Shown in pieces: positions 53,419-56,924 of a stretch of 64,000 nucleotides of DNA; position 1 is the stretch's first letter, and each line of letters begins with the position of its first letter. The position numbers and the translations under genes were made by a program. The notes beneath the pieces were generated by a model. The model did no database searches, was not told where the DNA came from, and worked only from the letters and a program-made list of their open reading frames with translations. The stretch spans positions 1 to 64,000 of the forward strand of contig WGLR01000009.1 of the NCBI GenBank assembly GCA_016125475.1. Direction: 5' to 3'. The stretch is from Betaproteobacteria bacterium (lineage in GTDB: Bacteria > Pseudomonadota > Gammaproteobacteria > Burkholderiales > Ga0077523).

Positions 53419-53841
53419 GTGTCCGTCTCGCATCCGTTTCACCTCGCCTTCCCCGTCACCTCTCTCGAGAAAGCTCGCGGGTTCTATGGAACGCTGCTCC
53501 GCTGTCCGGAGGGCCGCTCTTCCGACGACTGGGTGGACTTCGATCTTTACGGTCACCAGATCGTCGCGCATCTCGCACCGGCGGAAGCCGGGCAAGCCCG
53601 CACGAACAGCGTGGACGGTGACGACGTCCCGGTCCGGCACTTCGGTGTCGTCCTCCCGATGGCGGAATGGCAGGAACTGGCCGACCGCCTTCGGGCCGCG
53701 GGCGTCAGATTCCTGATCGAGCCGCACGTCCGGTTCGCGGGCGAAGTGGGGGAGCAGGCGACCATGTTCTTCCTGGACCCGTGTGGCAACGCGCTCGAAT
53801 TCAAGGCGTTCGCCGACCCGTCGCGCCTGTTCGCGAGGTGA
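53419..53841 (+). CDS. VOC-family (glyoxalase/bleomycin-resistance fold) protein
   Basis: 140 aa. Single vicinal-oxygen-chelate module pair (beta-alpha-beta-beta-beta): [20 protein letters not shown] and [14 protein letters not shown], with metal-ligand candidates His8, His85-like (VRHFGVVL) and Glu near the end. Such proteins include dioxygenases, glyoxalases and resistance proteins. GTG 53419 has CAGGAACG upstream. It is downstream of the amidase but after a hairpin, so it may be a separate unit. Confidence 0.8.
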
Positions 53842-53868
53842 CGGGAGCTTCGGGCGTCCAGCTCGACC

Positions 53869-54558
53869 TCACTCCGACGCGACGCTCGCCGCCGGCGCCG
53901 GCCGGACCGCATCGATCAGTCGCACGAGGCGTTCGAGGTGGCGATCCGGAAGGCCTTCGCGTGCCAGACTCTCCGCGGTCATCGTGAGGTAGTCCGCGCA
54001 GGGCCCGTAATGGCCGCGGGCACGCAGCATCACCGAGACGATCTGCTCGTCGGTCAGCTTTCCCGCGTACGTGGGCTTGTCCCGGTTGATCACGAATGCG
54101 ATCGCCCGGACGGGGCCGCCAGCCGTCGACACGGAGACCCATCTCGGTGTGTACGTCGACATGATCATCTCCCGCCGCCAGATGAGGGCGAGTTCGTCGC
54201 GGAGCACGGATTCGTCCAGACGGTATGCCACCCCCGTGCAGGAACCGCCTCGGTCGAGTGCGAGCACGAGACCGGGCGATTCGGGGGATCCTCGATTGAT
54301 GAACGACCAGAGATAGAAGCCGCGGTGATAGCCGTGAACGCGGGCGACACGTCGCTCGACGGAATGGAACAGAGGGCTCCAGATGAGCGAGCCGTACCCG
54401 AAGATCCAGACGGGGTCCCGGCCCTGGCGCTGCGCCAGCGCGAGTTCGAGTGACCGCTCGAGGTCCTCGTCGGACACGAGAAGGTGCCCGTGCCCCGAGG
54501 CGCGGACGGCTGCGCGGATCCGGTCTTCCTCGAGGTGAATCCTCTCGATTCGCGTCAC
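53869..54558 (-). CDS. chaC: Gamma-glutamylcyclotransferase, ChaC family
   Basis: 229 aa. The signature VWIFGYGSLIWSP lies near residue 50 and the catalytic Glu is in the region after GSCTGVAYRL. ChaC enzymes cleave glutathione to 5-oxoproline and Cys-Gly. The N-terminal 45 residues are extra. Converges on the VOC gene 27 bases away. The upstream pseudo-protease gene on the same strand ends 22 bases before it, so the two may be co-transcribed. Confidence 0.9.
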   Translation of the reverse strand: MTRIERIHLEEDRIRAAVRASGHGHLLVSDEDLERSLELALAQRQGRDPVWIFGYGSLIWSPLFHSVERRVARVHGYHRGFYLWSFINRGSPESPGLVLALDRGGSCTGVAYRLDESVLRDELALIWRREMIMSTYTPRWVSVSTAGGPVRAIAFVINRDKPTYAGKLTDEQIVSVMLRARGHYGPCADYLTMTAESLAREGLPDRHLERLVRLIDAVRPAPAASVASE

Positions 54559-54580
54559 GTCGTGCCAGGGCCGGCCGGTT

Positions 54581-55555
54581 TCAATGCAGACGGGGCTTCT
54601 TCAGGAAATCCGCTCGGTCGGCCGACCGGATCCTGGCATGCCTCAGCGAGCCGTCGCGCGCGAACGCGAGCGGAATCTCCGTCCCTGCGGGTCCCGTCGC
54701 CCAGACCTTTCGGAACAGGTCCGCCAGAGTCGTGACACGCTCGCCCCCGACCTCGAGCACGAGGTCGCCCACCCGCATTCCCGCGCGCTCGGCCGGTCCG
54801 CCCGGAGCCATGCCGGCCACGATGAGCTGACCTTCTGCCTCGGTCGTATACATGCCGAGCCACGGGCGGGTGGGGCGCGAAACGCGCCCGAGATGCAGGA
54901 GATCGTCACGGATGGGACCGAAGAGGTCCGTCGGCACGAACATGTTTCCCTGCACCTTCCGCCCGTCGACGCTTTCCTCGAGGAGCAGCGAGCCGATTCC
55001 CACGAGCCGGCCCTCGTGATCCACGAGCGCGGCCCCTCCCCACTGCGGATGGGCGGGAGTCACGAAGAGCGCCTCGTCCAGAACGTACTCCCAGTAACCT
55101 GCGAACTCCCGCTTCGCGAATATCTCTGCCTTCAACGCGTGCTCGGCACCGCCATGACCGATGACGAAGACCTGATCACCCACGCTGCAGTTCGCAGACG
55201 AACCAATGGGCATGGCCGGAAGCTCGAGTCGCCCGAGCGGCTGGACGAGCCCGAAACCGGTTGCGAAGTCGAAGGCGAGCGGATGCCCCACGACGACCTG
55301 TCCGTCGTTCGTGGACAACCAGAGAGTCTCGGCTTCGGTGATGAGGTATCCGATCGTCAGGATGAGCCCGTCGTCGGCGATCACAACGCCGTTGCCGGCT
55401 CGCTCGGTTCCGAGGATCGATGCGGTGAAGGCGTCGTCGGGCACTTCCGACCGCACGGTGACGACCGCATCGAGCGCGGCCTCCAGATCGAACGCCACTT
55501 CAGCCTGACGTGGTCGCAGCTCCTTGGGGAATGCCCATTCTCTGTCGTCTGCCAT
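54581..55555 (-). CDS. HtrA/DegP-fold protein with PDZ domain, catalytic triad lost
   Basis: 324 aa. The trypsin-like fold is clear (GNGVVIADDGLILT, VGDQVFVIGHGG, WGGAALVDHEGRLVGI), and a PDZ domain follows (about 230-315, GMRVGDLVLEVGGERV). Each triad position is replaced: His by Tyr70 (LTIGYLI), Asp by Gly100 (FATGFGLV), Ser by Trp172 (PQWGGAA). There is no signal peptide or membrane helix, so unlike DegP it should be cytoplasmic. It is an intact frame with ordinary codon use, so a pseudo-enzyme rather than a decaying gene. Function unknown; binding via PDZ is inferred. Confidence 0.85.
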   Translation of the reverse strand: MADDREWAFPKELRPRQAEVAFDLEAALDAVVTVRSEVPDDAFTASILGTERAGNGVVIADDGLILTIGYLITEAETLWLSTNDGQVVVGHPLAFDFATGFGLVQPLGRLELPAMPIGSSANCSVGDQVFVIGHGGAEHALKAEIFAKREFAGYWEYVLDEALFVTPAHPQWGGAALVDHEGRLVGIGSLLLEESVDGRKVQGNMFVPTDLFGPIRDDLLHLGRVSRPTRPWLGMYTTEAEGQLIVAGMAPGGPAERAGMRVGDLVLEVGGERVTTLADLFRKVWATGPAGTEIPLAFARDGSLRHARIRSADRADFLKKPRLH

Positions 55556-55685
55556 GCCATCCGGAAGTCGGTTTTCGCCAGCGGTCGCCGACGATTGTCG
55601 TGCGCCCGATCATAACCCACGATCGCGCGCGTGCACCCGCCATGAGACACTTGCCCGCTTCAAGGAACACCCTTCTTCCGTGATC

Positions 55686-56924
55686 ATGAACGGCTCGGCC
55701 ACGCAATCCGTTGCGGGCATCGACTCGGGCTACGCGTGGATGCGCCTGGTTTCCGCGGTTGCACTCTCGACGACGGGTGGCGTGGGCATGTGGGCGGTCG
55801 TCGTCGCGCTTCCCACGATCCAGGCCGCGTTCGGCGTTGCACGCGCGGGCGCGTCACTACCCTACACGCTGACGATGGTGTGCTTCGGACTCGGCGGAAT
55901 CGCGATGGGACGACTCACGGACCGGTTCGGCATCGTGATTCCCGTCGCGCTTGGTTCGGTCACCCTCTGCACCGGGTTCGTGACGGCGAGCCACGCCGAA
56001 TCGCTGACGGCCTTTGCGCTCGCCCAGGGCATTCTCGTCGGATTCGGTGCCTCGGCGACCTTCGCACCGCTGCTCGCCGACACGTCGCACTGGTTCGTGC
56101 GTCGCCGCGGCATCGCGGTCGCCGTGGTCGCGAGCGGAAACTACCTCGCCGGGACGCTCTGGCCACCCGTCGTGCAGCACTTCATCGGCACCGCGGGCTG
56201 GCGCGCGACCTACCTCGGCATAGGGGTCTTCTGCGTGCTCGTCATGGCGCCGCTTGCCTGGACACTCCGCCGCCGTCCGCCCCCGCACGACGAATCCGAC
56301 CCGAACCGACCCTCGCAGTCGCAGCCGGCGAGGATCGCGGTCCGGCCGGTCGTTCTGCAGGGAGCCCTCATCGTGGCGGGCGTCGGCTGCTGTGTCGCGA
56401 TGTCCATGCCGCAGGTGCACATCGTCGCGTACTGCGGAGACCTCGGCTACGGCCCCGCTCGAGGCGCCCAGATGCTCTCCCTGATGCTGGGTCTCGGAAT
56501 CGTGAGCCGCCTAACGTTCGGCTGGATCTCGGACCGCATCGGCGGGCTGCGCACGCTGCTGCTCGGTTCGAGCCTGCAGGCGCTCGCCCTGCTCATGTTC
56601 GTGCCGTTCCGCGGACTCGTGTCGCTCTACCTGATCTCGGCGATGTTCGGCCTCTTCCAGGGCGGGATCGTCCCGTCCTACGCCATCATCATCCGCGAGT
56701 ACTTCTCTCCGCGTGAAGCGGGCGCCCGCGTCGGGGCCGTGATTACCGCGACGCTGTTCGGCATGGCTCTCGGCGGGTGGATGTCCGGGGCGATATTCGA
56801 CCTCACGGGCTCGTACCGCGCGGCGTTCGTGAACGGCGTCGCCTGGAACCTTCTGAACCTCGCGATCGTCGTCTGGCTGCTTCGACGCCGCGTTGCACCC
56901 GTGCCTGTGCCGGCAGTGACCTGA
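55686..56924 (+). CDS. MFS transporter (monocarboxylate/oxalate-formate type)
   Basis: 412 aa, twelve predicted helices. MFS motif A GRLTDRFGIVIP after helix 2, the matching GWISDRIGGLRTLLL after helix 8, and a long cytoplasmic loop (PPPHDESDPNRPSQSQ) between halves. WPPVVQHFIGTAGWRATY resembles MCT-type carriers for organic acids. Substrate unknown. The frame is open upstream to 55524, but ATG 55686 starts the conserved region. It is divergent from the pseudo-protease gene. Confidence 0.85.
   Translation: MNGSATQSVAGIDSGYAWMRLVSAVALSTTGGVGMWAVVVALPTIQAAFGVARAGASLPYTLTMVCFGLGGIAMGRLTDRFGIVIPVALGSVTLCTGFVTASHAESLTAFALAQGILVGFGASATFAPLLADTSHWFVRRRGIAVAVVASGNYLAGTLWPPVVQHFIGTAGWRATYLGIGVFCVLVMAPLAWTLRRRPPPHDESDPNRPSQSQPARIAVRPVVLQGALIVAGVGCCVAMSMPQVHIVAYCGDLGYGPARGAQMLSLMLGLGIVSRLTFGWISDRIGGLRTLLLGSSLQALALLMFVPFRGLVSLYLISAMFGLFQGGIVPSYAIIIREYFSPREAGARVGAVITATLFGMALGGWMSGAIFDLTGSYRAAFVNGVAWNLLNLAIVVWLLRRRVAPVPVPAVT

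Follow-up and report, generated by a model that had tools for sequence, protein, structure and literature searches.

An HtrA-fold pseudoprotease from a betaproteobacterium and the large family to which it belongs

We describe a bacterial protein that has kept the fold of an HtrA/Deg protease and its PDZ domain, has lost the residues with which such proteases cut, and is one of a large conserved family, although it was originally predicted as a single odd gene. It is encoded on a 64,000-nucleotide stretch of contig WGLR01000009.1, and it is this whole stretch that we call the window. With the cutting machinery and the export signal lost, and a copy kept in many related bacteria, the protein probably grips other proteins inside the cell. 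Our favoured reading is of a cytosolic pseudoprotease with the HtrA/Deg fold, an adaptor or holdase to which C-termini or unfolded chains would bind; as a whole we put this statement forward tentatively, a shade short of evenly balanced.

The fold and the remade active site

The original prediction was of an HtrA-fold protein with a PDZ domain on an uninterrupted gene, and in this it was right; it named no strand, and we can add that the 324-residue reading frame fills its interval on the minus strand (Table 1). Pfam's Trypsin_2 model matches at 65 bits (cut-off 27.6) and PDZ_2 at 40.9 bits (cut-off 27), with three PDZ models in all above their cut-offs across residues 231-309, and the W-L-G that opens the PDZ domain stands at the presumed place of the carboxylate-binding loop. 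Among solved structures the top sequence matches are DegS and DegP/DegQ (best E 1.1e-17, or 1.6e-25 with a family profile). In NCBIfam, the best of the 17 families listed reaches 77.6 bits against a cut-off of 416.2, so that no named HtrA subfamily can be assigned. The AlphaFold2 model, built on an alignment of 63 of 81 family sequences, is confident and HtrA-like (mean pLDDT 93.1, pTM 0.90); a structure search with it found plant Deg1 (Z 25.4, rmsd 5.6 over 283) and the catalytic domain of HtrA1 (Z 22.6, rmsd 2.7 over 180), and the top Foldseek rows are DegP chains. An antisense frame of 343 residues on the plus strand (54584-55615) spans the whole gene. The conserved protein at the locus is the minus-strand one, and the plus-strand frame is apparently a side effect of a coding sequence rich in GC.

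Table 1. Positions in the window of the pseudoprotease gene, its domains and its altered sites
Feature	Positions	Strand	Remarks
Entire gene for the HtrA-fold pseudoprotease, with a single PDZ domain at the C-terminus	54581..55555	minus	324 aa, ATG at 55555
Degenerate trypsin-like (Trypsin_2) domain, residues 54-187	54995..55396	minus	Pfam match
PDZ domain, residues 232-309	54629..54862	minus	Pfam match; opens with W232-L-G234 (54854-54862)
Tyr70, at the catalytic His position	55346..55348	minus	Alignment with 29 active HtrA rows
Gly100, at the catalytic Asp position	55256..55258	minus	Alignment with 29 active HtrA rows
Remade serine loop P167-A-H-P-Q-W-G-G-A175	55031..55057	minus	Contains Gln171, Trp172 and Gly173
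Hairpin tip E150-F-A-G-Y-W-E-Y157	55085..55108	minus	Model strands 140-153 and 157-166; W155-E156-Y157 invariant in the family

The active HtrA rows to which we aligned the protein comprise four from the window's genome and 25 from a search of that genome and 12 related ones, and some genes stand twice among them. Their NPGNSGG aligns with H169-P-Q-W-G-G-A, which places Gly173 on the serine and Trp172 on the Asn that precedes it. Gln171 falls on the oxyanion-hole Gly (position 193), a residue found in 29 of 29 active rows, and a fourth catalytic element is thus lost too. The triad had first been read as Tyr, Gly and Trp. Tyr70 and Gly100 are borne out; Trp172 as the replacement for serine is ruled out, standing one residue before it. 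A corrected alignment in which His, Asp and Ser would reappear was sought and none was found, the only correction being the shift of the serine position by one residue, to Gly173. As to the features of HtrA/Deg (S1C) membership, then, a trypsin-like domain followed by a PDZ domain is present, the His-Asp-Ser triad is absent, and so is the oxyanion-hole Gly. With four catalytic elements gone, proteolysis is implausible, and, as far as an alignment with active HtrAs can tell, the protein is almost certainly not a protease, in agreement with the non-catalytic role first proposed for it.

Conservation, selection and spread of the family

A scan of genome contigs found at least 587 stretches that encode a relative, the best 80 of these at least 587 being 53-66% identical. 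Because the peptide patterns used for the scan included EFAGYWEY and AFDFATGF, these best 80 lean towards those motifs; 99 loci from profile searches (L088-L126 and L152-L211), which are independent of the two patterns, agree with them. Eighty of the stretches fetched from profile searches were chosen by hand, and the sampling of relatives lies within Pseudomonadota. In all we compared 180 loci, the window's included, and dropping seven duplicates left 173 sequences that are distinct over residues 40-309.

Throughout these 173 sequences the position of the catalytic His is taken by Tyr (172) or Phe (1) and that of the Asp by Gly (173), the oxyanion position is something other than Gly in 172 and Gly in one, and W155, E156 and Y157 are invariant. 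The residue preceding the serine position is W in 149, H in 14, F in eight and Y in two, and the serine position itself is quite variable (Gly 108, Ser 48, Ala 12, Gln 3, Pro 1, Asn 1). Of the triple substitution that the original prediction proposed to look for in homologues, the loss of His and Asp is seen in every sequence, while a Ser survives at the third position in 48. The losses of His and Asp are more than chance, since they are common to all 173 distinct sequences and the gene is under purifying selection (see below). On the tree, the serine position has changed at least 12 times among 57 rows and positions 70, 100 and 155-157 not once, a pattern to be expected of a serine that has fallen out of use. 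It might of course be asked whether the Ser-keeping members retain some residual activity, or whether the family is an enzyme with a new catalytic arrangement, for which R52, T67, E74, D96, E156, Y157, S189 and N204, all nearly invariant, would offer polar residues. However, all 49 loci with Ser at this position are without the His, the Asp and the oxyanion Gly, a Ser in such company would not be expected to be catalytic, and the position changes freely on the tree; we regard either form of activity as very improbable.

A second way to account for lost catalytic residues is that the gene is simply decaying. Here the evidence is firmly on the other side: the dN/dS ratios in six gene pairs are 0.05-0.18 (three of the pairs, with dS above 1, giving rough values), none of the family matches listed from the genome samples of the phylum, the order and the second class has an internal stop, and members are present in 10 of 12 genomes of the window's genus, including eight of the eight of good quality (the two that lack one are 79% and 64% complete). 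On these ratios the gene is under purifying selection, and decay, refuted by the ratios and by retention across the genus, has next to no probability left.

For finer comparison we set apart the loci that carry both W79 and H169, the window's group, with 117 loci against 63 for the rest of the family; the invariance of these two residues inside the group follows from how it was delimited. W232 and G234 are also kept in all 117 loci of this group in the family alignment. Nine members outside it (L152, L153, L157, L158, L162, L165, L168, L177 and L211) have an 'NGH' stretch just before the domain, doubled in L162 and L165. A tree of 74 hand-picked rows (45 from the window's clade, 12 divergent and 17 of the 29 active HtrA rows; a quick method with SH-aLRT support) splits the family from the active HtrAs at support 100 and unites the window's clade at 99. 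Of the remaining 12 family rows, which form no single supported group, one (L115) joins the window's clade with support 89. That clade also has a few members, L122 among them, that lie outside the W79 and H169 group.

The family is widespread. With E <= 1e-50 as the threshold, a member was found in 35 of the 398 genomes of a phylum-wide sample, in 52 of 200 from the window's order and in 56 of 240 from a second class, that of genome G035, which we take to be Alphaproteobacteria from its place in the tree next to a Bradyrhizobium row. Members scoring at least 436 bits are present in 32 of the order's 200 genomes and members scoring at most 349 bits in 33; 13 genomes have both kinds. Relatives 50-55% identical stand on 26 plasmid records, from Neorhizobium, Rhizobium, Azospirillum, Phyllobacterium and Pararhizobium. 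A genome of only 1.2 Mb that looks complete (G359) has retained a family member, L113, whose N-terminus is hydrophobic, and this suggests a gene that repays its cost. Three loci (L009, L037 and L055) come from metagenome-assembled genomes titled Klebsiella pneumoniae, Bordetella parapertussis and Asaia bogorensis, which are apparently environmental bins with unreliable names. A viral origin was considered and dropped: 38 pattern matches in viral contigs include no relative, and nine records of a phage collection match at 24-27% identity, being DegS-, DegQ- or Do-like where annotated.

Place in the cell and gene neighbourhood

Bacterial HtrAs are generally exported to the envelope. This last membership feature is absent from the window protein by a hydropathy scan, the measure (distinct from a signal-peptide predictor) by which we judged export under one rule for all loci. 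No signal peptide was seen: residues 1-40 reach only 1.3 at their most hydrophobic, and the 18 polar codons that precede the ATG, back to the upstream stop, give with the first five residues a best 12-residue mean of -0.7. The same genome has five HtrA matches; the four triad-bearing paralogues among them that we examined each have, in contrast, a hydrophobic N-terminal stretch, and the lack of an export signal noted at the outset is upheld. The same is seen across the window's group, where 116 of 117 loci have no hydrophobic stretch before the domain; in the exception, L047, the stretch lies upstream of the likely start. Outside the group, at the same threshold, 37 of 63 loci have a hydrophobic N-terminal stretch and 26 have none. 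The window protein is thus probably cytosolic, and the simplest reading is that export was lost once, the ancestor having been exported, although the direction of that change is our presumption.

Gene neighbours have so far been less telling. A ChaC-like gene (PF04752, 127 bits; 53869-54558, minus strand) starts 22 bases downstream on the same strand and may, given this spacing, be co-transcribed with the pseudoprotease gene here, but the pairing is not conserved in the family, the ChaC cluster holding four loci with the window's. Seven neighbours in the window were assigned by Pfam (ChaC, glyoxalase-like, amidase, molybdopterin oxidoreductase, MFS transporter, hybrid histidine kinase and altronate dehydratase). 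Two clusterings of neighbours, in which star clustering and short contigs can lead to undercounting, found no gene common across the family and none, at that breadth, that would suggest protein quality control, and the idea of naming a partner from the neighbourhood was dropped. In the window's group, genes of a binding-protein family are the most frequent neighbours, present in mixed orientation at 19 of 117 loci and within 400 bases at 10 of them. Two contexts are bound to a lineage: one is seen at eight Acetobacteraceae-type loci, and in the other a helicase gene, by its motif a putative UvrD, lies upstream on the opposite strand at eight of the 63 loci outside the group (L115, L163, L169, L171, L174, L178, L183 and L184). 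Simple scans of 53700-55800 gave no promoter- or terminator-like sites, and a defence system was dismissed, PADLOC giving no match.

A putative binding role, its precedents and its meaning

What, then, might such a protein do? What has been kept is the fold, the PDZ domain and a new, aromatic-rich hairpin and serine loop. We suggest that it works by binding rather than by cutting: the PDZ domain would take the C-termini of clients, an extended stretch of the client would be gripped in the protease-fold cleft as remade by Tyr70, Trp172 and the W-E-Y hairpin, and misfolded or tagged proteins of the cytosol could in this way have an adaptor or a holdase. It is by inference, of course, that we arrive at peptide binding, the role of the cleft, the adaptor or holdase function and the oligomer state, as at the chaperone or regulator role first proposed.

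The nearest precedent, we think, is MamO of Magnetospirillum magneticum, a non-catalytic HtrA in which, in the part of the paper available, a Trp of the L1 loop makes the bound peptide sit off-centre, out of the catalytic centre (PMC4794232). Set beside MamO by description and not by alignment, and as far as that account goes, the window protein shares an HtrA-like protease domain with a degenerate triad, a residue other than Gly at position 193 and a bulky Trp in L1 (here Gln171 and Trp172), whereas the Trp of MamO is at 192 and Trp172 aligns with 194. Again from what is available of the source, MamO is confined to magnetotactic bacteria, unlike the family described here, which is found in many genomes; the seven neighbours scanned with Pfam include no magnetosome gene. 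Inactive HtrA variants, according to the available part of a further paper, retain protective and anti-aggregation functions (PMC11642142). It is from these functions, and from the Trp and non-Gly likeness to MamO, that we infer a binding role, which by analogy we would put as an even call.

The main rival is a dedicated regulator or scaffold, which would use its PDZ domain and remade cleft to bind and tune a single specific partner in place of many clients. The iRhom pseudoproteases are reportedly a precedent for pseudoproteases with regulatory roles, and the surface motif W155-E156-Y157 and the PDZ domain are indeed strongly conserved. MamO would be another such precedent, since it activates MamE-dependent proteolysis (PMC4794232, in the part available). 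No neighbour recurs across the family, however, even the commonest being one of mixed orientation near a minority of loci, and we rate a regulator as possible and on the unlikely side. MamO also binds transition metals, with a di-histidine site and metal-binding residues in loop LC and helix 2, and so shows that the fold can turn to metal binding (PMC4794232, same portion); a ligand- or metal-binding protein on an HtrA scaffold would fit H169, which all 112 distinct sequences of the window's group carry, in part because the group was so defined. Yet outside that group the position is His at just 23 of 63 loci, and the list of conserved residues holds no second invariant His or Cys, which leaves this alternative improbable. 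The W-E-Y motif, and H169 in the window's group, could equally serve a specific partner or a ligand.

The adaptor or holdase reading invites a bolder one, for which our expectation is low: Proteobacteria might possess a two-compartment, ATP-independent and non-proteolytic HtrA system made of exported and cytosolic dead HtrA-PDZ proteins, whose PDZ domains would capture C-termini and whose Trp-blocked clefts would hold the chains across them, the cytosolic one being a holdase or a C-degron adaptor.

Non-catalytic proteins of the HtrA fold are already known, and the family adds to them. Its closest sequence and structure matches, DegS, DegP and DegQ, share the order of a Trypsin_2 and then a PDZ domain; the window protein differs in having no triad, no oxyanion Gly and no export signal, and just one PDZ, and its family parts from the 17 active rows at the full support given above. 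Inactive plant Deg proteins, such as AtDeg16 and the second protease domain of AtDeg7, likewise combine the fold with mutated catalytic residues and are eukaryotic (PMC3473262, in the portion available). A 2008 survey of 91 prokaryotic genomes, among them Bradyrhizobium japonicum, counted inactive homologues among serine proteases as 42 of 966, and as two of 247 for the trypsin-like ones; the available part of its text describes no family like this one, and one of those two proteins may be a member (PMC2605481). Such proteins were proposed to be little studied, and the literature covered, which takes in few subscription journals and no bioRxiv preprints, yielded no study of the family.

Six of the 26 plasmid records label the relative that they carry, five as 'S1C family serine protease' and one as 'signal protein PDZ', and so members of a common family bear the name of an activity that is not expected of them. 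If the protein does bind C-termini or unfolded chains in the cytosol, protein quality control in bacteria would gain a component, and in the family nature supplies a large set of cases in which to see how a protease fold becomes a binding fold.
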